A stretch of DNA of 16,553 bases from Nitrospirota bacterium. Lineage in GTDB: Bacteria; NPL-UPA2; JAADIA01. The stretch covers positions 1 through 16,553 of the forward strand of contig JAADIA010000021.1 of the NCBI GenBank assembly GCA_013151555.1, read 5' to 3'. Positions 1,494 through 12,895 of this stretch are shown here, one piece after another; position 1 is the stretch's first letter, and each line of letters begins with the position of its first letter. The position numbers and the translations under genes are program-made. The notes beneath the pieces were generated by a model. The model saw nothing but the letters and a program-made list of their open reading frames with translations. It did not search any database and was not told the origin of the DNA.

Positions 1494-3080
1494 TTACGCC
1501 CCCACTTCTATCACCGCTCCCGCATCATTCCCGAAAATATCTACCACCTTCACAGCAATTTTACGCTTTTTCTTGTCCAAAGTCGCTGTGACCATAATCG
1601 GCACTGTTTTAGCCCTTTTGCCGTTTCCTCTGAAAGCCTGCCATTGGCTTTTGAAAGTGAAGCCGTCAAAATCCCAGTCAATAGCCCAGTAATCAATTAA
1701 TACGGCGAAGTTATCCTTGGCAAGTTTCATCAACTTATTATAATTATTCTGTCCTTTCTTCGAGGTATGATTTACCGGAATATCCCTAAGGACATATCGC
1801 TTTATTCCCACCTTTATCCGAACCTTGCCCTTTCCTAAATCTTTTATCTCCGGCTTATTCAGTTTAAGACGATGTTGCCTTTCCGGGACACGCCCAGCGG
1901 CAAGATAAAGCATTTCCCGCGGGCCATTACCGATATTTTCTATAAGGAAAGGCTTTGCTCCCACCTCTACCAGACGGGCTCGGGTGACCTGAATTCCAAC
2001 CTTGCCCAGTTCACATCCAATCCAGCATCTTCCAAGTTTTTCAGCGACAGCAAGGGTGGTACCGGAACCGCAGAAAAAGTCAGCTACAAGGTCACCTTCA
2101 TTAGAGGAAGCTTTGATTATGCGTTCAAGGAGAGATTCGGGCTTTTGGGTATCGAAACCAACTCTTTCCCGGGAATTGCTGTTTAACATTTCAATTTTCC
2201 ACCAATCCTTTGGGATACTCCCTTTCTTCATATACTGTCTATAAGTAAATTGGGGATGTTTTTTCTCGTCTTCAATGCTTATATCCCCTTGACCAACACC
2301 AAAAGGACCACCCTTCCCTCTAATCATAAATCTTCTTCCTTGCTCATCCGTATACTTAAACCGTACCTGGTAATCTTCAGGATAAGGTTCCAAGACATCT
2401 TTTAAATTGAAAATTGGATTTTTTGACTTCGAATAATAAAAAATAATATCATGTTTTTTGGCCCAACCCGATTTTACCGTCTGCATAGTTCTATAGCACC
2501 ATACTATCTCATTCCTAAAATTTTCTTTACCAAAAATTTCGTCCAACAATATTCTTATATATGAATTAATGTGCCAATCACAGTGTACATAAATACTCCC
2601 CTCCTCTGCCAGCAACCGTTTCATCAACTGTAACCTCGGATAAAGCATATCCAGATAAGAATCCGTCCCCCCGGCCCAGGTATCTTTATAAGCAAGCCGT
2701 TCAATAACTGAAGGCTCTTTAGTAAATTCATTTCCTTCTATTACCATCTTGTGGGAATAATCTGCTTTGCTGTCAAAAGGTGGATCAATATAAATAAGAT
2801 TTATCTTTTCCTCGTATCCCCGGGCAAGAAGCGCCTGCATAGCTAAAAGATTATCGCCCCGGATAAGACGGTTCATCTTTTGTTTATCAAGCTCTTCTTC
2901 ACCCAACAGTCCGGCTCGAAAAGAAAAAGGAATCCGGGATTCGTCCCGATGAGGATTAGGAATCATCACTTCGGCGGTCTGAAATTCCATGTCCCGGGGA
3001 TTGGGAGCCCTTCCGGGCTTGGTATTCCAAACCAGCCTTGCTGAATCCTTTTTTTTGTATATGTTGTTATCATCAGCCAT
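1494..3080 (-). CDS. Solitary beta-class DNA methyltransferase (type III Mod-like)
   Basis: A 528-residue site-specific DNA methyltransferase acting on adenine N6 or cytosine N4. The catalytic motif IV DPPF (99-102) precedes the SAM-binding loop DFFCGSGTT (334-342). With the TQKPESLLERI segment (311-321) just before that loop, this gives the beta-class order seen in type III Mod subunits. About 160 residues after the SAM motif form a C-terminal extension I cannot assign. The length is somewhat short for a type III Mod. No restriction or helicase partner is next to it: the neighbours are a rhodanese protein (convergent) and an OmpA protein. It is therefore solitary here, either regulatory or a leftover of a restriction system. 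The ATG has AAGGA 8 nt upstream. DPPF is more frequent in N6-adenine enzymes, but the modified base cannot be fixed from sequence alone. Confidence 0.88.
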   Translation of the reverse strand: MADDNNIYKKKDSARLVWNTKPGRAPNPRDMEFQTAEVMIPNPHRDESRIPFSFRAGLLGEEELDKQKMNRLIRGDNLLAMQALLARGYEEKINLIYIDPPFDSKADYSHKMVIEGNEFTKEPSVIERLAYKDTWAGGTDSYLDMLYPRLQLMKRLLAEEGSIYVHCDWHINSYIRILLDEIFGKENFRNEIVWCYRTMQTVKSGWAKKHDIIFYYSKSKNPIFNLKDVLEPYPEDYQVRFKYTDEQGRRFMIRGKGGPFGVGQGDISIEDEKKHPQFTYRQYMKKGSIPKDWWKIEMLNSNSRERVGFDTQKPESLLERIIKASSNEGDLVADFFCGSGTTLAVAEKLGRCWIGCELGKVGIQVTRARLVEVGAKPFLIENIGNGPREMLYLAAGRVPERQHRLKLNKPEIKDLGKGKVRIKVGIKRYVLRDIPVNHTSKKGQNNYNKLMKLAKDNFAVLIDYWAIDWDFDGFTFKSQWQAFRGNGKRAKTVPIMVTATLDKKKRKIAVKVVDIFGNDAGAVIEVGA

Positions 3081-3269: not shown

Positions 3270-4190
3270 TTATTCGATGGGAATAATAATTGTCTTACCT
3301 GGTTTTAGCCTATCGGGATCTTTGATTTTATCTTTATTGAAATTGTAGATTCGTTTCCACTGACTTCCGTCGCCATATTCTTTTACAGCAATTTTCCATA
3401 AAGTATCTCCTTTCAGGACCGTATATTTTTTCGTATCTACCCTTATAGGAGTTTCAATCTTCTGAACCTCTTCTACAACTTTGCTCTTCGGAGAGACGGA
3501 TTTCCCGGGATAAGGGATCATAATCTCCTCCACCTCAGCGATCATAAACTGAGCGTTTCTATCTTTCTGCAGACCCACAAGATCATTGATGGGAGCAACA
3601 GCATCAAGTTTGCCACGGCTTACAATTCGGATACGTTCCTTGGGTATACCTTTACTAAGCATAAAATCTTTCACCGCTTCAGCCCGTTGTCTGCCCAATT
3701 CCAGATTGTAGGCCTCCGGCCCACGGATATCGGTATTCCCGGTTATGAGGATATTGCCCTTGGGATTTTTATTAAGGACTTTGACGGCATTTTCCAAAAT
3801 AGGGATGGCTGCATCTCTTAGCTTGGCTTTATCAAAGTCAAAGTATATCTTTACATTTTTAATTATCTTTTTGATAAGCAGAGAAGGTCTTGGTTCCTTT
3901 GGTTTCGGGGAAGGAAGTTCTCCTTCTTTATAATCAAAGATAACTTTATAGACATAAATGTAACCTCTGTTCCCCCAGGGCCTTACCTTTCCTGGAGTTG
4001 TCGGCCACCACCAGTATCCGCCTCGTTCCCGATCTTTTACCGGAGCAGGAACAGAATCCGTTGGCCACCAGGTAAAACGTGAAGCTCCCCCCTTCTTATC
4101 CTCCCGGGCATTAGCACTTGCCGTAACCATAAAAGAAATTGTTATCGCTAATAGACACAGGTAAACTTTCCCTACTGTTAAGCTTTTCAT
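3270..4190 (-). CDS. OmpA-family envelope protein with C-terminal LysM domain
   Basis: A 306-residue exported protein that probably ties the outer membrane or periplasm to peptidoglycan. A Sec signal peptide covers residues 1-28 (cleavage near ASANA). A Trp/Pro-rich segment with two similar motifs, FTWWPTDS (39-46) and YWWWPTTPG (59-67), comes next, then a Pro/Lys-rich linker. The OmpA peptidoglycan-binding domain spans about 112-220, with the helix NLELGRQRAEAV (162-173) that normally carries the peptidoglycan contact. A second wall-binding domain, LysM, covers 256-304 (YTVLKGDTLWKIA...). There is no beta-barrel domain, so it resembles Pal-like or soluble OmpA/LysM proteins more than true OmpA. 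It is monocistronic: own promoter, GGAGGGG Shine-Dalgarno 8 nt before ATG, own terminator. Confidence 0.87.
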   Translation of the reverse strand: MKSLTVGKVYLCLLAITISFMVTASANAREDKKGGASRFTWWPTDSVPAPVKDRERGGYWWWPTTPGKVRPWGNRGYIYVYKVIFDYKEGELPSPKPKEPRPSLLIKKIIKNVKIYFDFDKAKLRDAAIPILENAVKVLNKNPKGNILITGNTDIRGPEAYNLELGRQRAEAVKDFMLSKGIPKERIRIVSRGKLDAVAPINDLVGLQKDRNAQFMIAEVEEIMIPYPGKSVSPKSKVVEEVQKIETPIRVDTKKYTVLKGDTLWKIAVKEYGDGSQWKRIYNFNKDKIKDPDRLKPGKTIIIPIE

Positions 4191-4346: not shown

Positions 4347-5096
4347 TTATTCTCTATCATAAAGGGAATTATCCGTGCCGACAAACCCCAGGTTGTTGGT
4401 TTTAAAGGTTTCTTCGGAAGCAACCCATCCTGAAGCATGTACCAGGTCTCTGGTTCTGCTCTCTACATGGCCGTCACAAAAAGTTATATTAGCCTTTCCC
4501 CTATGGCGAAAATGGATGCTGGGATCGGCTTTGCCCCAGCTCCAGTAAGGAGCCGTGACAAAAGAATACTCAATAAGCTTTCCTCCGGATAAAAAAGCAC
4601 TATCGGCGAACATTATCGTTTGAGAAGGATTGCGTATCTGGTTAACCCGAGCCGGTATTTCTAAATTGTCCGGAGACCCTCCTACATACTGACTGTTGTA
4701 CCCATATCCTCCCGTTCCCAACTCAAAGGCACCGCTATCCTGATAAAACTTTTTAAAGGTTGGATCTTCCTTTATCTTTCCCGTTTGCAAATAGGGATAC
4801 AGAGGCCCTTTGGCAGGATCGAAAGGAGCAGAGAGAGTTTCTCTTGCCCCATGCCATCTCTGAAGATTGGCATGCATGATATCAGCCGCAGCCGGCGGGT
4901 ACCACCCATCGTAGTCTTCCGTATACAGGACTGCCGCCAGATAGAGTTGGCGCAGATTAGAGATACAAACAGCGCTTCTTCCCATTTCGCGGGCCGTGCT
5001 GAGAGCCGGTAAAAGCAGAGCTGCAAGTATAGAGATAATAGCCATAACTACCAGCAGCTCAATGAGGGTAAAACCCGTCTTTTTCCTAACAATCAA
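4347..5096 (-). CDS. Prepilin-like protein with N-terminal cleavage/methylation site and H-X9-DG motif
   Basis: A 249-residue type IV prepilin/pseudopilin-like protein. The leader is short and basic. The processing site TG|FTLIE puts cleavage after Gly8, with Phe9 as the new N-terminus and Glu13 at the conserved +5 position. A hydrophobic helix runs to about residue 32. Near the C-terminus is H198, nine residues, then D208-G209, the H-X9-DG signature (DUF1559-type) known mainly from planctomycetes, Lentisphaerae and relatives. Family members are numerous, and the function of most is unknown. The start is the rare codon TTG: GGAGG (5104-5108) lies 7 nt upstream, and no ATG gives the full processing site. 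It is the third gene after the cobalamin riboswitch, 12 nt behind the second PEP-CTERM gene, so it is probably controlled by B12. No clear terminator follows. Confidence 0.85.
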
Positions 5097-5108
5097 CCCC
5101 TTTCCTCC

Positions 5109-6092
5109 TCACTGCTTTCTCCGAAAAAGAAAGGAAAACAGTCCCCCGGCTAAAAGGATAACGGTTGCCGGTTCGGGAACAGGAGTAACTTCAAAGATGG
5201 TACTTTGTCCGGCAAACCAGTCGGTAGTATTTACATAAAGATGACCGCCATCCGGGTTTCCGGTTTCAAAATCACCACTGCCGGGAACAAACCTTAAGGT
5301 GCTGGGAGAAGTTCCGCTGCCGAAGGGGTTTGAAGAACCAAGATTGTTTGTTTCCGTAACCGCTCCTGTATAACTGCTGGAAAAAAGATCACCGGCGGAA
5401 TCAAAAGCGAAGTAGCCGATAGAGTCAAGTCCGGTAGCAAAGACAGACCAATCAGTTTCCCCCAGCGTCCCCGTTCCCAAGGCCGAATTCACCTGGCTGC
5501 CGGTGAAACTTATTATCTCACTTCCCTTACCATAATAGAGATTACCGGAAGTATCAAAAGCCAGGGGACCGGAATAGCCTCCGATATCGGCAATCTCATC
5601 AGTAGTTCCGTTTACCAGGTCGAGATTGTAAATTTTGGTTCCCGCCCAGCCGGGATTAGCAACAATAAAAGCTTGCCCGGAACTATTAAAGGCTAAATCG
5701 TAGTTACTACCCAGAGAACCAAGATCAGTTACCGTTCCTCCGCCTGTCGAAACAGATTTGATTGATCCGTTAGAACTCTCCCCAAAATAAACGGTGGAAT
5801 CTTTTACCTTAAGGAAACTTCCATAAACATCGGAACTAAAAGTATAAAGGTCCGTTTCGCTCCCTCCTGGCGCTCTCTTGACGATAGAGTTTCCCCGAAA
5901 GAGATAAAGGTTCCCTGAGGTATCAAAATCAAAGCCGGCCAGGGTACCTGCCGGGGAAGCATAGGAAGACTCAGCAGTATATCCCGGGGAAGGGGTATAG
6001 GAAGGACTGGCCTGAAGGGATGTCCCGCCAGCCGTCCCCAATAACACTAAAACCGTTAAAATACTGCTTACATACTTATTCATTCTTTGCAC
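5109..6092 (-). CDS. PEP-CTERM surface protein with beta-propeller-like repeats
   Basis: A 327-residue exported protein. Residues 9-28 are a signal peptide. The C-terminus is a PEP-CTERM sorting signal: VPEPAT (305-310), a hydrophobic stretch, then RRKQ at the end. Exosortase normally recognises such a tail; none is encoded in this window. The body has at least four imperfect repeats of the type (L/F)AFDxSGxLY (about 54-63, 132-142, 177-186, 228-237), as in NHL/SMP-30-like beta-propellers, and is rich in Gly, Ser and Thr. The function is unknown; ligand or polymer binding at the surface is inference. The start is GTG at 6092: GGAGG (6101-6105) is 8 nt upstream, whereas the in-frame ATG at 6083 would be 17 nt away. 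It overlaps the previous gene by 13 nt, suggesting translational coupling within the riboswitch-controlled operon. Confidence 0.85.
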   Translation of the reverse strand: MQRMNKYVSSILTVLVLLGTAGGTSLQASPSYTPSPGYTAESSYASPAGTLAGFDFDTSGNLYLFRGNSIVKRAPGGSETDLYTFSSDVYGSFLKVKDSTVYFGESSNGSIKSVSTGGGTVTDLGSLGSNYDLAFNSSGQAFIVANPGWAGTKIYNLDLVNGTTDEIADIGGYSGPLAFDTSGNLYYGKGSEIISFTGSQVNSALGTGTLGETDWSVFATGLDSIGYFAFDSAGDLFSSSYTGAVTETNNLGSSNPFGSGTSPSTLRFVPGSGDFETGNPDGGHLYVNTTDWFAGQSTIFEVTPVPEPATVILLAGGLFSFLFRRKQ

Positions 6093-6922
6093 AGTTTTTT
6101 CCTCCTTTTTCTAACCAATAACAAACCCCCAATGAAGAAGAAGATGGTGGCCGGTTCCGGAATAAGAACCGTATTCACTCCGGCTACGGCATCCAAATCG
6201 AACCCGTTACCGAAGGGAAGGTGATTTCCGGCATCATCTACTATATCGCCATTAACATCAAGGGTATTAGAGCCCGTATCCGTGATTTTGATAAACCGGA
6301 TATGGTTTACGTCAACACCGGCTTGAGTAGCTTTCCCGGCTATCTCGTTTAAGTCAAAAGAATCGCCTCCCGAAAATTCGGGGTCGGTAGGGTCAATTCC
6401 GTTAGAGGTTTTACTGATAACCGGATTCACTCCGGCAAAATCCCGGAAGTTATCAGGATTCTTATAAGAAGCTCCTCCAGAACCCGGAGGACCGTCAGGG
6501 TCGTAATCAAAGGGGAATTCCACAAAGGTATTCCCATCATCGCTCACAGCCACACTGGCTACCTCAGTAAAGACATTATCCTCTGCTCCTCCTACCAAGA
6601 TGGCATTTTCGAAAACCGTGAAGTCCTTTCCCTCTCCGTTATAGATATAGTTGTCGGTAAATTCCAGGACAATCCATCCTCCATCTCCCAGGCTGAGGAC
6701 ATCGGTAGACCCCCACAGGGTTCCTGTTCCTTCAGGAGGTCCCAGAACAATATCAGGGAAACTATCCTGACCGAAACCGGCTCCACTACCATAGCTAACC
6801 TTGACTACCTGGTCAGCAAAGGGATCCGGACCGGGAATTATTGAAGCTTCTCCCCGGGAAGCTGTTCCCGAAAAAACGCTCAAAACAATCATTAAAACAA
6901 GCCCTCTCCTCTTAAAAAACAT
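6080..6922 (-). CDS. PEP-CTERM surface protein, first gene after a cobalamin riboswitch
   Basis: A 280-residue exported protein. It has a basic, hydrophobic signal peptide (1-27) and a C-terminal PEP-CTERM tail: IPEPAT (254-259), a hydrophobic segment, then a strongly basic end (271-278). The extracellular body is acidic and Gly-rich, with conserved-looking segments GKDFTVFENAI (98-108), GGDSFDLNEIAG (185-196) and GNGFDLDAVAGVN (238-250). The stretch 222-230 (DVNGDIVDD) resembles a calcium-binding loop. I do not recognise a named domain. Its ATG has GGAGG about 12 nt upstream. A cobalamin riboswitch with terminator lies directly in front, so expression should rise when B12 is scarce. This and its place beside btuFCD suggest a role in corrinoid capture or a B12-dependent surface process; that role is inference. 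Confidence 0.85.
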   Translation of the reverse strand: MFFKRRGLVLMIVLSVFSGTASRGEASIIPGPDPFADQVVKVSYGSGAGFGQDSFPDIVLGPPEGTGTLWGSTDVLSLGDGGWIVLEFTDNYIYNGEGKDFTVFENAILVGGAEDNVFTEVASVAVSDDGNTFVEFPFDYDPDGPPGSGGASYKNPDNFRDFAGVNPVISKTSNGIDPTDPEFSGGDSFDLNEIAGKATQAGVDVNHIRFIKITDTGSNTLDVNGDIVDDAGNHLPFGNGFDLDAVAGVNTVLIPEPATIFFFIGGLLLVRKRRKKLCKE

Positions 6923-6948
6923 TGTCTCTCTGCACCTCCTCTCTTGAT

Positions 6949-6988
6949 AAAAAAAACCCCTAAGTTTTTTCTTAAAAAACTTAAGGGT
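6949..6988 (-). terminator. Riboswitch-linked intrinsic terminator before the PEP-CTERM operon
   Basis: On the minus strand a 15-bp stem (6974-6988 with 6956-6970, one G-U pair, 3-nt loop) is followed by eight T residues (6949-6956). It lies between the cobalamin aptamer and the first gene. That fits an expression platform in which bound cobalamin favours termination. Confidence 0.85.
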
Positions 6989-7041
6989 TGCACCCAGTTT
7001 ACTTCACCCCATCTTTACCAGCGAAGAAATGGTGAATCTCG

Positions 7042-7208
7042 ACACAGGCAGGTCTTCTGGCTCTCGGGTCATCCTCATTCCCACTCCTTCCCGAAATGGT
7101 TCACCACTTCAGTGGCACTTACGTGGGAAATCGTCTCCGATTACAGCGGCGGGACCGCGATGGCTTTTAACCATCTTCCCTATTATGCTCTCTTACAAGC
7201 ACCCGTGC
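7042..7208 (-). promoter_or_regulatory. Cobalamin riboswitch controlling the PEP-CTERM/prepilin operon
   Basis: Minus-strand cobalamin (B12) aptamer. The 3' B12 box AGCCAGAAGACCTGCC is at 7047-7062. Upstream are the conserved CCGCTGTAA core and ATAGGGAAG elements. A closing P1 stem of 8 pairs, including wobbles, joins 7201-7208 to 7042-7049. A short hairpin (7003-7036) and an intrinsic terminator follow, so control is probably by transcription termination. The promoter start site is expected almost exactly at the 5' end of P1. Confidence 0.93.
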
Positions 7209-7214
7209 TCTATT

Positions 7215-7244
7215 ATAATAAACCTTCTCCCAAATCTTTGTCAA
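7215..7244 (-). promoter_or_regulatory. Promoter of the PEP-CTERM operon riboswitch
   Basis: On the minus strand TTGACA (7239-7244), an 18-bp spacer, then TATTAT (7215-7220). A perfect TATAAT overlaps at 7212-7217 but would need a 21-bp spacer. Initiation about 7 nt downstream falls at the first base of the aptamer. Confidence 0.6.
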
Positions 7245-7278: not shown

Positions 7279-7476
7279 CTATTTTGACTTATTTTGGCTT
7301 ATCTTGGATTTATTCTTCCGTAAAAATTTCTCTATCTCCCCCTCGTCCCAGAATTTGGATTTGTTGGTCACAGTGATGGGAGGAGGAAACTTCCCCAGCT
7401 TAACCCAATTTCTGATGGTCTCTTCACACCGGCCGAATTTTTCAGCAACCTTCTGAATAGTAATTAGCCTCCCCAT
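7279..7476 (-). CDS. Small AlpA/excisionase-like helix-turn-helix protein in the btu operon
   Basis: A 65-residue DNA-binding protein of the AlpA/excisionase-like (MerR-type winged helix-turn-helix) group. The helix-turn-helix is at residues 6-28 (ITIQKVAEKFGRCEETIRNWV). The wing FPPPITVTNKSKFWDEGEIEKFL (31-53) leads to a basic tail with the repeated NKSK motif. The ATG at 7476 lies inside the end of btuD (13-nt overlap), with a GAGAAGGG Shine-Dalgarno about 6 nt away, so it is translated from the btu transcript. Proteins of this fold usually come from prophages or integrative elements and act as excisionases or small activators. No integrase or attachment site is visible here. It may regulate the following riboswitch-controlled operon, whose promoter starts only 35 bp downstream of its stop; that is inference. 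Confidence 0.75.
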   Translation of the reverse strand: MGRLITIQKVAEKFGRCEETIRNWVKLGKFPPPITVTNKSKFWDEGEIEKFLRKNKSKISQNKSK

Positions 7477-8285
7477 CTTTTACCCTTCTCAATCGCTCTT
7501 TCTTCTCCGGAAACCAAGATAATATAAGGTTTCCCGGAGAGAGGATTATTTTCCACCAGCACCACTGTTTCATATACCGCCTCAATATGGACGTAAGAGA
7601 GCACTTCTGCAGGAGAACCTTTTTGATATATTGTACCCTCTTTTAACAAAATCAACCGTTCACAGTACTCACCGGCCAGGTTCAGGTCATGCGAGACCAT
7701 GATGACCGTTATTTTTTTCTCTCTATTCAACTTCCTCAGCAGGTCCAGAATTTCTATCTGGTGGCCGATATCCATGTGAGAGGTAGGCTCATCCAGAAGC
7801 AGAAGTTCGGGTTCCTGGGCAAGGGCCTGGGCTAAAATGACCCTCTGTCTTTCTCCCCCGCAAAGCTCCGAAACCCTCCTCTCCCGAAGGGGAAGAATAT
7901 CAGTTAACACCATAGCCTTTTCCACCATCTCTAAATCAGCCCTTTTTCCCCTCTCCAATCTTCCTAAATAAGGAAACCTTCCCATAAGAACAAATTCTTC
8001 TACAGAGCAAGGGAAAGGGATACTTAACATCTGAGGCAGAACGGCTACTTCCCTGGCCAACTCCCGCCGAGGAATCCGGTTGAGAGATTTTCCTTTGTAA
8101 AAAATTTCTCCCCGGTAAGGTTTCAAAACCCGGGTGATGCATCGGAAAAGGGTCGTCTTACCGGAGCCATTGGGTCCAATTATACCCAGGAAACTTCCTT
8201 CTGCCACAGAGAAAGATATCCCCTTGAGGACTTCCTCCTCTCCATATCCGCAGACAAGCCCGCTTACCCTTAAGATATATCCCAT
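7464..8285 (-). CDS. btuD: Cobalamin ABC transporter, ATP-binding protein BtuD
   Basis: A 273-residue ATPase of the FecCD-type (iron-siderophore/cobalamin/heme) importers, on the cytoplasmic side of the inner membrane. Visible motifs: Walker A GPNGSGKTT (37-45), Q-loop Gln85, signature LCGGERQ (141-147, with Cys in place of the usual Ser), Walker B LLLLDEP (161-167), and the switch His199 in SHD. The start overlaps btuC by 16 nt, and its end overlaps the helix-turn-helix gene by 13 nt. Related importers carry siderophores or heme, and the protein alone does not tell them apart. The cobalamin riboswitch in front of the operon makes cobalamin or another corrinoid the likely substrate. Confidence 0.92.
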   Translation of the reverse strand: MGYILRVSGLVCGYGEEEVLKGISFSVAEGSFLGIIGPNGSGKTTLFRCITRVLKPYRGEIFYKGKSLNRIPRRELAREVAVLPQMLSIPFPCSVEEFVLMGRFPYLGRLERGKRADLEMVEKAMVLTDILPLRERRVSELCGGERQRVILAQALAQEPELLLLDEPTSHMDIGHQIEILDLLRKLNREKKITVIMVSHDLNLAGEYCERLILLKEGTIYQKGSPAEVLSYVHIEAVYETVVLVENNPLSGKPYIILVSGEERAIEKGKRWGG

Positions 8286-9253
8286 CTTTTCGCCCTCAAG
8301 AGGAAGGTTAAGAAGAAGAATCCTCCTAAAATTCCGGTAATGACTCCAACTGGAAGTTCCAGGGGAGCAACGATGGTCCGGGCCAGCGTATCGGAAAGAG
8401 CCAAAAAGACAGCTCCCCCAAGAGCCGCTGCCGGGATTAAAAGACGATGATTCGGACCGGTGAAACGTCGCAGAAAATGAGGGACGATTAATCCTACAAA
8501 ACCAATTATTCCCGTTGCCGCCACGGCAGCTCCGGTAATCAGGGAGGCCACCAGGAAGAGTATTTTCTTTACTCCCTCGGCCTCCAGGCCCAGATGCGCA
8601 GCTCTTTCCTCCCCCAGGGTAAGCAGGTCAATCTCCCGCCCGAAGAGAAGGAAAACAAGGATTCCGGCAGGGATGATAAAAGCAATGACTTTCAAGAGAG
8701 CCGGCTGCAGGGAAGAGAGGTCCCCCATTAGCCAGAAGATAGCTCCCTGTACTCTCTCTGCCCGGACCAGAGAGAAAATAAGGAGGACCAGGGAAGAAAA
8801 GATAAAGCTCAGGATTATCCCTCCCAAGATCAGGCCGGCAACAGAAAATCTTCTTCGGGCCACGATAAAATAAATCATCGCGATAGAGAACAAAGAACCC
8901 AAAAAAGCCATGGCCGGAACCCAGTAACCTCCTAAACCCAGGACAATGCCCAGGGTAGCCCCCAGAGCCGCTCCCCCGGAAACACCCAGAGTATAGGGTT
9001 CCGCCAGGGGATTACGAAGCATTCCCTGAAAGACTACCCCGCAGGAGGCTAACCCGGCGCCTACCAGGAATCCTAAGACAATCCGGGGAATGCGAATTTG
9101 CCAGATGATGGTCCGAACAGTTCCTGCCTGGTGAGGATGAAAGAGAGCCTCCATTGTTTCTCTCAAAGGAACCTTGCTTCCCCCAAACATCAGGGAAAAG
9201 ATGAAAGTGAAAAGTAAGAGTATAAGCAAAATAAGAAATAAGGCTTTTTTCAT
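8270..9253 (-). CDS. btuC: Cobalamin ABC transporter permease BtuC (FecCD family)
   Basis: A 327-residue polytopic inner-membrane permease with about ten hydrophobic segments along its length. Family hallmarks are RNPLAEPYTLGVSGGAALGA (80-99), the coupling region GFVGLIVPHFLRR (251-263) and the C-terminal ELPVGVITGILGGFFF (299-314). It forms the translocation channel of a BtuCD-type importer with the adjacent ATPase and binding protein. The ATG overlaps the btuF stop as ATGA (4 nt), a typical coupled arrangement. The length is normal for the family. Substrate assignment rests on the riboswitch and on btuF next door. Confidence 0.93.
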   Translation of the reverse strand: MKKALFLILLILLLFTFIFSLMFGGSKVPLRETMEALFHPHQAGTVRTIIWQIRIPRIVLGFLVGAGLASCGVVFQGMLRNPLAEPYTLGVSGGAALGATLGIVLGLGGYWVPAMAFLGSLFSIAMIYFIVARRRFSVAGLILGGIILSFIFSSLVLLIFSLVRAERVQGAIFWLMGDLSSLQPALLKVIAFIIPAGILVFLLFGREIDLLTLGEERAAHLGLEAEGVKKILFLVASLITGAAVAATGIIGFVGLIVPHFLRRFTGPNHRLLIPAAALGGAVFLALSDTLARTIVAPLELPVGVITGILGGFFFLTFLLRAKRWDIS

Positions 9254-10140
9254 CGTTCGAAGGCCTCAGGATGGAACCGCCGGGCTACTTCCTCCAATCC
9301 TTTAGCAAAGGCTAAAGGGGTGGGACGACTGACCAGGTTGGGATCCACACGATAAATCCTGGCCCTTAGATGGAAGCGGCGCCACTCTTCTTCCTGACGC
9401 TTTGCCAATTCCTTACCTCCCGTCGTCAAAATAACCACCTGAGGATTTTCTTTAATAACTGCTTCCCGACTATAACGCGGATATCTGGTTTTAGCTTCAT
9501 GAGCAATATTTATACCTCCGGCCATGCGGATCAATTCATCAATAAATGTTCCCTTAGCCACGGTAAACAGAGGTTTCGGCCACACCTGCCAGAAGACCCT
9601 GACCAAAGGTAAGGGACTAACTTCCTTGCTGACTTTTGTTATTATCCCGGCGGCTTTTCTCACTATCTGTCCGGCCGTCTTCTCCTGACCGACTATCTTT
9701 CCCAGGAGTAAAAAATGCTCCTTGATATCGGAAAAACTCCGGCTTTCCCCAAGGACAAAGACTTTTATTCCCAGATGGCGCAACTTACTCATCGTTTGAG
9801 ACTTGTTTCCTTCTTGGGTGATTAAGACCAAATCGGGATTTAAAGAGACTATCTTTTCTATACTGGGATTCAACATCGTCCCTACTTTTTCCTTCTTCCC
9901 GGCTTCCGCAGGGACATCTGCAAAGATTGTTACCCCCACTATTCTTTCCCCCGCTCCTAATAGATAAAGGCTCTCAGTAAGGGAAGGAGCCAGAGAGACA
10001 ATTCTCTGGGGTGGGGAGGAAAAACTGAAGGAAGTGCCGGTAGCATCTTTCAGCTTCAGGGGAGCAGAAAAGCCCCCCGCCGGCATCAGTAAAAGGACTG
10101 CTCCAACAATGGACAAACTAATTAATCTTCTCATTTTCAC
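9250..10140 (-). CDS. btuF: Cobalamin-binding periplasmic protein BtuF
   Basis: A 296-residue periplasmic substrate-binding protein of the helical-backbone (BtuF/FhuD) class. A signal peptide covers residues 1-25. The first lobe begins with the family pattern RIVSLAPSLTESLYLLGAGERIVGV (46-70), followed by IEKIVSLNPDLVL (94-106). It has no lipobox Cys, so it is probably soluble in the periplasm. It delivers the corrinoid to BtuC. Two starts are possible: GTG at 10140 (GAGGAG 5 nt upstream) and ATG at 10134 (11 nt upstream); the sequence does not settle this. It is the first gene after the upstream riboswitch, separated from the terminator by a repeat-bearing leader of about 335 nt. No outer-membrane receptor gene accompanies it. 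Confidence 0.9.
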   Translation of the reverse strand: MKMRRLISLSIVGAVLLLMPAGGFSAPLKLKDATGTSFSFSSPPQRIVSLAPSLTESLYLLGAGERIVGVTIFADVPAEAGKKEKVGTMLNPSIEKIVSLNPDLVLITQEGNKSQTMSKLRHLGIKVFVLGESRSFSDIKEHFLLLGKIVGQEKTAGQIVRKAAGIITKVSKEVSPLPLVRVFWQVWPKPLFTVAKGTFIDELIRMAGGINIAHEAKTRYPRYSREAVIKENPQVVILTTGGKELAKRQEEEWRRFHLRARIYRVDPNLVSRPTPLAFAKGLEEVARRFHPEAFER

Positions 10141-10517: not shown

Positions 10518-10575
10518 AATTTTACCTACTCGGGCTTCACCGTCCCTTAACAGCGAAGAAAACAGTGAATATATA

Positions 10576-10750
10576 CCCAGGCAGGTCTTCTGACTTCCGG
10601 ATCAACCTACCGGCCGCACCTTCCCGATCGCCTCAAGCGATCAGTGGTTAATTGCGGCTTTCGTCCCCGGTTACAGCGGCGTGCCCGTGTCCTTTTAATT
10701 ATCCTCAGGACTTCCCTATTCTCCCGCCGGAAACACGGCAGGCACCTGGG
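10576..10750 (-). promoter_or_regulatory. Cobalamin riboswitch controlling btuFCD
   Basis: Minus-strand cobalamin aptamer with a near-consensus B12 box AGTCAGAAGACCTGCC (10580-10595), the core GCCGCTGTAACC, and AATAGGGAAG. The P1 closing stem of 7 pairs joins 10744-10750 to 10576-10582. A conserved short hairpin (10536-10569) and an intrinsic terminator follow. Cobalamin binding should reduce expression of the btuFCD importer, the usual logic for uptake genes. Confidence 0.94.
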
Positions 10751-10776
10751 CAGGATTTATTTTCAATTGTAAAGAT

Positions 10777-10805
10777 ATTATAAGCTGCTAACTTTTATCT
10801 GTCAA
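10777..10805 (-). promoter_or_regulatory. Consensus sigma70 promoter of the btu riboswitch operon
   Basis: A perfect match on the minus strand: TTGACA (10800-10805), a 17-bp spacer, TATAAT (10777-10782). It lies just after the end of the hexosaminidase gene and about 27 bp before the aptamer. Such a strong promoter fits control exerted afterwards by the riboswitch. Confidence 0.85.
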
Positions 10806-10843: not shown

Positions 10844-12895
10844 TTATTTTGAACTCTCGACCAATTTTTCAACAGCAGACACTATCATCAGTTCCGTTTC
10901 CCCTCTTGGTTCTTTTGCTTTTTCTATCTTTATTAGATTTTCCTGAATCCATTCTTCAGAGGGTTTCTTATGCTCATTCCTGAACTTTAAAGCTTGAAGA
11001 CCAACACCGGCCAGATCCGAAAGGTCTCTTGATAATGGTTCAACTTCCTTTAAAATCGGCGAGCGGTTTATAACTATGAGCAACTTTCCATGATTGTTTT
11101 TCCATAAATTCAACCAGGATACAATCTCATCTTTCGTTCCCTTGTTTCCGCTCAAATAACTGTTTACCAGTTCCCGGAAATGTCTGGCAACAACAGCATC
11201 CGGCCGGGCGGCATCCACCACTCTGGTTAGGGGAGAATAAGATGTATATTCCCGCAAAGAACCGCGTTTGTATCCCTTGACGGGTTCAAGCACATCAACA
11301 AGCGTTTTTAATGCTGTTATGTCGTGACTATTGGCCAGACGCCGAAGCATCATCCCGTAATTCTTCTCATGTAGTAATCCTAATTCTTCCAGGCGCAAAC
11401 TGACGACAGGCAACCGGCGATACATATCATCAACATCTCTGATTGAGCCCGGAGACCACAGACGTTCTGCAATGACAGCCGTGCGTGGCCAGATACGGGA
11501 ATCTATTGTTTCCGGAGATACAAATTCCCCCCACATGGTTGCTTCGCCGCCAAGAATATATTTCTTTTGTTTTTCAGTCAGCAAGGCCCCTTTCGGAAGC
11601 GGATCATTCAGATAAAGATAACTCGCAGGCTGGATAAGATCGATATAGTAGCCATTTGATAGAATTGTCTGATATCCTTTCTGGGCCGCCTTGATCAGGG
11701 CTGTTTGTCCCCGCCACGATTGGATAACGATATCTTTCGGCAGTTCCGGTTGAAAGATTTCATCCCAACCTACCATTTTTTTATTATATTTTTGCAAAAT
11801 TTTGAGGATCCGTTGGTTAAAATATCTTTGCAGAGCATGATTGTCGGGGATGTTATGAGCTTTCATATATGCCTGAATATCCGGATTTGCATTCCATTGC
11901 CTACCATTATTCTCATCGCCGCCGATATGAATATATCTGTCCGGAAACAAAGCCGTCATTTCTGCAAAGAATTTATCCAGAAAAACATAGGTTTCCTCCC
12001 GCGTGGGATCCATAGTGGGATCTTTAATGCCCCATTTGCGCGCGATTGTATACTTCCGTCCCGGGGCACTGGAAAGCTCCGGATAACCAACGAACCAGCT
12101 TGTGGCATGGCCAGGCATATCAAACTCCGGCATGACCCGAATGCCGCGATCTGCAGCGTAGGAAATAATATCTTTAATTTGTTCTTGTGTATAGTAAAAC
12201 CCATCCGATCCCAATTCATGCAGTTTGGGAAAAGTTTTACATTCCACGCGGAAACCCTGGTCTTCGGTAAGATGCAAATGCAAAACATTCATTTTTACCG
12301 CCGCCATGCCGCTAAGATTACGTTTGATAACTTCAACCGGCATAAAATGGCGACCGACATCTATCAGCAATCCCCGCCAGGGAAAACGAGGTGCATCTTT
12401 GATCTCAACGGAGGGAAAATAATAACCTTTTTCGTCCGCGTTTAATAATTGGTTAAATGTTGCAAGACCCCTCAGGATACCAATATCAGTTTCAGCAGAA
12501 AGCTCAATCTTTTCCGGCGTTATCCTTAACTGATAAGATTCATCTTCATGCAAAATTAATTTACCCTGCCGGTTGCAGGAGATAATAAAATCTGCATCCT
12601 GTACATTACCTCCGGGACGAATAAAATCCTGGGAAAAGAAAATCCCGGTTCGGTCGGATAAGCGTCGCAAGGTTCTGGTTACCGCTTTGCCCAGCCGCGC
12701 TCCTCCCTTTTTTCCCTGAATCGCAATTGTAAACGAATCCGACAGCCGGAACAGACCGTCCCCACGTGTTATTTGCTTCGGCACCGGCATAAGGTTTAAC
12801 TCTTCAGTTTCCTCCCTTGCGAAAGTGACGGAACCCATCGTCAGAATGATCACTAAAAGCAACAAAACAGAATAAAAAAGACTCGTCCTGTTCAT
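10844..12895 (-). CDS. Secreted GH20 beta-N-acetylhexosaminidase
   Basis: A 683-residue glycoside hydrolase family 20 enzyme that removes terminal N-acetylhexosamine residues (chitin or peptidoglycan fragments, glycans) by substrate-assisted catalysis. A signal peptide covers 1-26. The N-terminal GH20b domain (about 33-165) starts with LMPVPKQI. The catalytic barrel (about 172-490) shows FPWRGLLIDVGRHF with the substrate-binding Arg174, the catalytic Asp-Glu pair in HIGGDEN (D327, E328), MVGWDE (375-380), LGGEATMWGE (448-457) and AERLWS (476-481). A roughly 190-residue helical C-terminal region follows. There is no PEP-CTERM tail and no lipobox. The ATG has AGGAGG 5 nt upstream. It follows dgt by 115 bp with no terminator between them. 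No other glycan-degrading genes are nearby. The exact substrate cannot be read from the sequence. Confidence 0.93.
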   Translation of the reverse strand: MNRTSLFYSVLLLLVIILTMGSVTFAREETEELNLMPVPKQITRGDGLFRLSDSFTIAIQGKKGGARLGKAVTRTLRRLSDRTGIFFSQDFIRPGGNVQDADFIISCNRQGKLILHEDESYQLRITPEKIELSAETDIGILRGLATFNQLLNADEKGYYFPSVEIKDAPRFPWRGLLIDVGRHFMPVEVIKRNLSGMAAVKMNVLHLHLTEDQGFRVECKTFPKLHELGSDGFYYTQEQIKDIISYAADRGIRVMPEFDMPGHATSWFVGYPELSSAPGRKYTIARKWGIKDPTMDPTREETYVFLDKFFAEMTALFPDRYIHIGGDENNGRQWNANPDIQAYMKAHNIPDNHALQRYFNQRILKILQKYNKKMVGWDEIFQPELPKDIVIQSWRGQTALIKAAQKGYQTILSNGYYIDLIQPASYLYLNDPLPKGALLTEKQKKYILGGEATMWGEFVSPETIDSRIWPRTAVIAERLWSPGSIRDVDDMYRRLPVVSLRLEELGLLHEKNYGMMLRRLANSHDITALKTLVDVLEPVKGYKRGSLREYTSYSPLTRVVDAARPDAVVARHFRELVNSYLSGNKGTKDEIVSWLNLWKNNHGKLLIVINRSPILKEVEPLSRDLSDLAGVGLQALKFRNEHKKPSEEWIQENLIKIEKAKEPRGETELMIVSAVEKLVESSK

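Follow-up and report, generated by a model that had tools for sequence, protein, structure and literature searches.

We analyzed contig JAADIA010000021.1 (16,553 nt, referred to over its whole length as the window) from a Nitrospirota bacterium (assembly GCA_013151555.1), and in particular an operon of three genes, here named P1, P2, and P3, that lies behind a cobalamin riboswitch. The sequence belongs to a 1.81-Mb metagenome assembly, a metagenome-assembled genome (MAG) that is 94% complete, from a phylum represented by nine genomes in the searched set. The order on the minus strand is promoter, riboswitch (RF00174), btuF, btuC, btuD, a 65-amino-acid (aa) helix-turn-helix (HTH) gene, promoter, riboswitch (RF00174), terminator, P1, P2, and P3 (Table 1). 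These two cobalamin riboswitches, both inside the window, are the only ones found in the whole assembly. A first-pass annotation of the stretch had placed a promoter, a cobalamin aptamer, and a terminator ahead of three co-oriented genes, and we confirmed all of these elements. It had also called P1 and P2 PEP-CTERM proteins and P3 an H-X9-DG prepilin-like protein. Indeed, TIGR02595 recognized the tails of P1 (16.1 bits, barely above the cut-off of 16) and P2 (22.4 bits), P1 staying under the Pfam PEP-CTERM cut-off (13.2 versus 20.7), and P3 matched both N_methyl (35.8 bits) and pre_pil_HX9DG (TIGR04294, 25.1 bits, cut-off 19). Two exosortase matches are present in the genome. The proposed overlap of P1 and P2 is real, but the 13 nt given for it require a GTG start, whereas a start at the in-frame ATG at 6083 would let P2 overlap the P1 stop codon by 4 nt in the common ATGA arrangement, and a length of 324 aa is therefore probable for P2.

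Table 1. Features of the surface operon and of the adjoining importer genes in the window
Feature	Position	Strand	Evidence
P1, 280 aa: signal peptide, BtuH-like domain (residues 31-250), PEP-CTERM tail	6080..6922	-	
Codon of P1 invariant Asn106	6605-6607	-	
P2, 327 aa (probable start ATG 6083): predicted six-bladed beta-propeller, PEP-CTERM tail	5109..6092	-	
P3, 249 aa: H-X9-DG prepilin-like protein, TTG start	4347..5096	-	
Sigma-70-type promoter of the surface operon, TTGACA-18-TATTAT	7215..7244	-	11/12 consensus bases; consensus match only
Cobalamin riboswitch aptamer 1, before P1	7030..7221	-	RF00174, 109.2 bits, cut-off 31.5, E 5e-27
Intrinsic terminator between aptamer 1 and P1, 16-pair stem then T run	6955..6989	-	
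Promoter of the btuFCD transcript, TTGACA-17-TATAAT	10777..10805	-	12/12 consensus bases
Cobalamin riboswitch aptamer 2, before btuF-btuC-btuD	10563..10764	-	RF00174, 104.3 bits, cut-off 31.5
btuF-like periplasmic binding protein	9250..10140	-	PF01497; BtuF PRK03379 E 1.4e-33, under curated cut-off
btuC-like permease	8270..9253	-	PF01032, E 1.7e-90
btuD-like ATPase	7464..8285	-	PF00005, E 6e-32
65-aa HTH protein (AlpA/HTH_17-type), between btuD and riboswitch 1	7279..7476	-	HTH_17 and AlpA over cut-off

A Pfam scan assigned P1 to no family except for the sub-threshold PEP-CTERM match and a weak match to the S-layer protein Slr4 (E 0.12), which we dismissed as chance, and direct sequence searches of P1 and P2 against the Protein Data Bank (PDB) returned nothing useful. 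We then compared the AlphaFold model of P1 (predicted local distance difference test [pLDDT] score 88, predicted template modeling score 0.81) with known B12 binders, as the annotation had suggested, and these came out on top. A Foldseek search of 350,542 PDB chains ranked BtuG1 first (E 1.6e-5). Upon realignment, BtuH2 (7biz) reached Z 13.3 over residues 31-250 (root mean square deviation 2.8, 158 residues aligned) and the BtuH domain of BtuG1 (8blw) reached Z 13.2, the next match standing at 9.2. Furthermore, a profile made from 8 divergent P1 relatives (A9) retrieved BtuH2 as its sole match at E<=10 among 177,635 PDB sequences, with an E value of 0.098 that is not significant on its own. 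The profile alignment sets SLGxGGxIxLxF...DFxVFENxF opposite VSLGSFGGYIIVGF...DFCVQGNAF of BtuH2. The numbering of the PDB chain is offset by 100 (construct 103-593, 501-residue chain, two leading residues assumed), so the aligned BtuH2 Asn and Phe are Asn399 and Phe401, and the residue of P1 facing Asn399 in this weak alignment is Asn106. In the crystal structure of BtuH2, Asn399 contacts the phosphate of B12 and Phe401 contacts the lower ligand (PMC8941943). Asn106 is invariant in an alignment of 53 sequences of the P1 family, and the position equivalent to Phe401 is Phe in at least 90% of them. P1 is very probably a remote member of the BtuH domain family and would work like BtuH. An identity with DUF4465/BtuJ was dropped because P1 had no Pfam match to it; BtuJ was also lacking in the fold list, which proves nothing.

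The lower-ranked fold matches of P1 were CBM32 and discoidin folds (Z 7.5 to 9.2), and the importer genes have a GH20 hexosaminidase gene just upstream. P1 might accordingly be viewed as a carbohydrate-binding surface protein (CBM32 or F5/8 type C), with a riboswitch that reflects a B12-dependent lifestyle rather than binding of the vitamin. We regard this as improbable, since the BtuH domains score 4 units above any carbohydrate-binding module and since the P1 family is found with BtuB, with BtuF, with BtuC, with an energy-coupling factor (ECF) transporter plus DUF4430, and with CobT plus CobS in unrelated phyla. BtuH2 itself has been reported with CBM32/discoidin-type fold matches.

To describe the family, we scanned genome contigs for its sequence pattern and found 393 P1 relatives, of which 75 loci were kept, and a search of 60 relatives added 10 loci. 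The final set comprised 88 loci, with two same-contig pairs (L014/L070 and L016/L056); L023 was left out, its relative being too weak. A Pfam scan of 53 P1 relatives detected no domain, save one PEP-CTERM match, and by a rough pattern match the anchors vary with lineage between a lipobox, a sorting tail, and PEP-CTERM. A covariance model made from nine riboswitches of P1 loci gave 84 matches in the 75 loci (1.19 Mb), all of them on the P1 strand, and a cobalamin riboswitch was located upstream of P1 on the same strand in 60 of the 75. With two riboswitches per 1.81 Mb in the genome of the window, one or two would be expected in a random 1.19 Mb. RF00174 was found in eight of the 10 added loci and RF01482 in one (L020), and over the 88 loci a riboswitch was present in 72 and a BtuB homologue in 46. 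The P1 relatives under cobalamin riboswitches come from Myxococcota, Omnitrophota, Sumerlaeota, Planctomycetota, Verrucomicrobiota, CSSED10-310, and other phyla. In Myxococcota, nine loci (L035, L039, L040, L044, L046, L047, L051, L052, and L055) hold two tandem units each, every unit consisting of its own cobalamin riboswitch, a companion gene of ∼500 aa, and a P1 gene. Two of the riboswitches scored below the RF01482 cut-off of 50 bits: that of L020 (6105-6244, plus strand, 40.7 bits, E 4e-6) stands directly before the operon and has its own terminator, and that of L131 (8935-9064, minus strand, 47 bits) is placed ahead of a P1/P2-type gene. The Rfam threshold of RF01482 thus seems to miss adenosylcobalamin riboswitches like these.

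The nearest named family to P1 is the LIC_13355 lipoprotein family NF033170 (53 bits, E 2.8e-14); the score is under the curated cut-off of 120, and by sequence P1 is a relative, not a member. LIC_13355 of Leptospira corresponds to LA_4203 (PMC5348505). LA_4202 and LA_4203 are the two lipoproteins of the cobII cluster, together with CobT, CobS, and CobC, and their genes were noted as ones that "may or may not participate in B12 biosynthesis" (PMC4758666). The published cobalamin riboswitches of Leptospira sit elsewhere, at btuB and at a cob locus. LIC_13355 is published solely as an adhesin, the recombinant refolded protein having shown nanomolar binding constants for laminin and plasminogen (PMC11891782), and 50 of the 53 P1 relatives matched the NF033170 model, which would favor a reading of the family as adhesins. 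We judge this to be highly unlikely, because the hosts of the family are mostly environmental bacteria, the tested protein was refolded from insoluble material, and LIC_13355 is itself encoded within cobII. Despite the location of the published riboswitches, B12 capture would be the more economical reading of LIC_13355.

The model of P2 (pLDDT 75) is a six-bladed propeller and most resembles Pizza, NHL, and SMP-30 structures, likewise six-bladed (Z 23-24). We rejected P2 as a member of the BtuG family on sequence, since a search with PF16819 (DUF5074) gave no match to P2 at E up to 1 and none in its own genome. As the P2 fold is common, P2 is tied to B12 only by its position and by fusions. 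L020, a locus of the same phylum, has BtuB, BtuF, a riboswitch, a prepilin, a P2 homologue (30% identity), and a P1 homologue in that order. In Omnitrophota, a P2-type propeller and, after it, a P1-like domain are parts of one giant protein; next come an immunoglobulin (Ig)-repeat protein that contains a P1 domain, a transcobalamin-like DUF4430 protein, and an ECF transporter. In L131, the P2 propeller, the P1 domain, and a sorting tail are joined in one protein behind the RF01482 match. To map the other BtuH2 contacts, we looked among DUF5074 loci for a BtuH sequence of the Bacteroides type; none turned up, but the search yielded L156, in which BtuB and a fusion of a DUF5074-type propeller with a P1 domain follow a riboswitch. 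The L156 propeller matches BtuG2 and BtuG1 (E ∼1e-10). In BtuG1, the propeller is followed by the BtuH domain (PMC10404256), and the L156 fusion mirrors this order, with a P1 domain in place of the BtuH domain. Several other loci showed weak NHL or SMP-30 traces in the gene between the riboswitch and P1, and propeller partners may thus be a general feature. The giant-protein loci of Omnitrophota lie at 4165-13458 of L032, 2223-14456 of L072, and 53-7282 of L037, and their DUF4430 and ECF genes could be a second B12 route.

P3 and the L020 prepilin share 51% identity. Eight prepilin genes were located within 3 kb of P1 (581 kb in total), always on the P1 strand, versus none in 812 kb of farther flank, a split that by a simple length argument has a chance of ∼0.001. 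The association occurs in three lineages, namely, the window with L020, five loci including named Sumerlaeota in which the prepilin begins 26-53 nt after P1, and one Planctomycetaceae locus whose prepilin lies directly behind the riboswitch and ends in LYDRE, as P3 does. P1 and P2 could nevertheless bind corrinoid while P3 is an unrelated prepilin that sits downstream by coincidence, as the genome contains 12 prepilin-like genes and the majority of P1 loci have no prepilin. The one-sided distribution, the shared strand, the recurrence in three lineages, and the similarity to the L020 counterpart make such a coincidence doubtful, albeit a possibility to be kept in mind. The 12 prepilin-like genes, along with five or six secretins, imply that partner machinery exists; a role of pilus or secretin machinery in B12 capture is conjecture.

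With a B12 riboswitch in front and P1 having the predicted BtuH fold and a key contact residue, the operon is probably a B12-catching device. More fully, we consider it likely that the operon is a corrinoid-capture module for the cell surface, in which P1 would bind through its BtuH-homologous domain, P2 would be its propeller partner, and P3 an assembly or display partner. The gene order, riboswitches, folds, and conservation of linkage were computed, and from them we infer corrinoid binding, the direction of regulation, the hand-over of the ligand, and the role of P3. When intracellular cobalamin is low, the riboswitch would permit read-through of the terminator, and P1, P2, and P3 would be made; when it is high, they would be switched off along with the adjoining btuFCD importer, which is under its own riboswitch. 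P1 would be exported, processed by exosortase, and shown outside the cell, where it would bind corrinoid, its invariant Asn106 contacting the phosphate of the nucleotide loop. P2 would hold or pass on the ligand, in the position of the Bacteroides BtuG-type propellers, with the prepilin P3 probably helping assembly or display, and the corrinoid would afterwards reach BtuF and BtuCD. The annotation had proposed a surface module that binds corrinoids ahead of BtuFCD, and regulation, gene neighbors, fusions, the predicted fold, and one contact residue support that idea, well so for P1. The annotation had also held that a consistent lack of riboswitches and btu neighbors among relatives would refute it, and the loci surveyed here show no such lack.

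Several observations weigh against this reading. On the side of structure, the folds of P1 and P2 are AlphaFold predictions, and that of P2 is uninformative on B12. The A9 subset was picked afterwards; the broad 53-sequence profile A6 gave only chance matches in the PDB, BtuH2 not among them, and a PDB search with the single divergent member from L020 likewise gave only chance matches. Position 108 of P1 in the window is Ile instead of Phe, and Tyr510, Trp511, Trp577, His476, and Gln333 of BtuH2, its contacts to the corrin ring and ribose, have no mapped counterpart in P1. On the side of linkage, a riboswitch is lacking in 15 of the 75 loci, and a contig end cuts about half of these. L064 and L073 are real exceptions with neither a riboswitch nor clear btu genes, and the P1 relative of L083 also has no riboswitch or clear btu neighbors; L073 and L083 are from Planctomycetota. 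In addition, many of the 75 loci are from related Myxococcota.

The module had been suggested to act in place of, or together with, a BtuB-type receptor, and both situations have a counterpart in our data. L020 has BtuB beside the module, whereas searches of the 94% complete MAG for the TonB-dependent barrel and plug (PF00593 and PF07715) and for a BtuB homologue gave no match. Corrinoids are of use to the cell, since its genome encodes several proteins with a B12-binding domain. Either the missing 6% of the assembly encodes BtuB, or corrinoids pass the outer membrane by another route. One such route, in which they would cross without a TonB-dependent receptor, captured by exosortase-anchored P1 and P2 and aided in display or import by the B12-regulated prepilin with pilus/secretin machinery, strikes us as rather unlikely. 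The absence of a detected barrel or plug would also fit a relic or domain-swapped operon that is non-functional here for want of an outer-membrane receptor, but both promoters, both riboswitches, the terminator, and the open frames show no damage and the MAG is just 94% complete, which makes this very improbable.

Other genes of the window on the same strand are the GH20 beta-hexosaminidase gene (10844-12895, upstream of the btuFCD promoter) and a gene for an OmpA-LysM protein (3270-4190), ∼156 nt beyond P3. A stand-alone N6/N4 DNA methylase (PF01555, 528 aa) is encoded at 1494-3080.

New here are the breadth of the family, a form anchored through exosortase, the association with a prepilin, and the lack of a detected receptor. 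P1 relatives form a large family, absent from Pfam and spread over many phyla, so capture of B12 at the surface by BtuH-type domains looks like a general trait and not one peculiar to the gut. For LIC_13355 of Leptospira, at present studied as an adhesin, this suggests a new function that can be tested. Exosortase sorting and prepilin-like proteins, for which few physiological cargoes are known, would be linked to a defined nutrient. If BtuB is truly missing, the question arises of how B12 crosses the outer membrane.

Compared with BtuBFCD of Escherichia coli, the window has btuFCD under a cobalamin riboswitch and an adjoining surface operon but no BtuB found in this genome. BtuJ1 and BtuJ2 (DUF4465; FEBS Open Bio 2026) are surface B12-binding beta-jellyroll proteins of riboswitch loci in several phyla and in this respect would recall P1; in contrast, P1 has no Pfam DUF4465 match, and the conserved motifs differ. 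BtuH has been described from Bacteroidetes and three Firmicutes, with no structural homologues known. BtuH2 (BT_1956) of Bacteroides thetaiotaomicron is only ∼20% identical to P1 and combines Ig-like PKD domains with a lipid anchor, whereas P1 consists of one domain followed by a PEP-CTERM tail; the two share the predicted fold of the B12-binding domain, the Asn for the nucleotide-loop phosphate, and riboswitch-controlled loci with btuB. As for BtuG1 (BT_1490), P2 and P1 are separate genes in the window, and P2 is predicted to be six-bladed while the BtuG type is seven-bladed. The pairing of a propeller with a BtuH domain is nevertheless common to both, and several P1 relatives carry a DUF5074 propeller in the same order as BtuG1.

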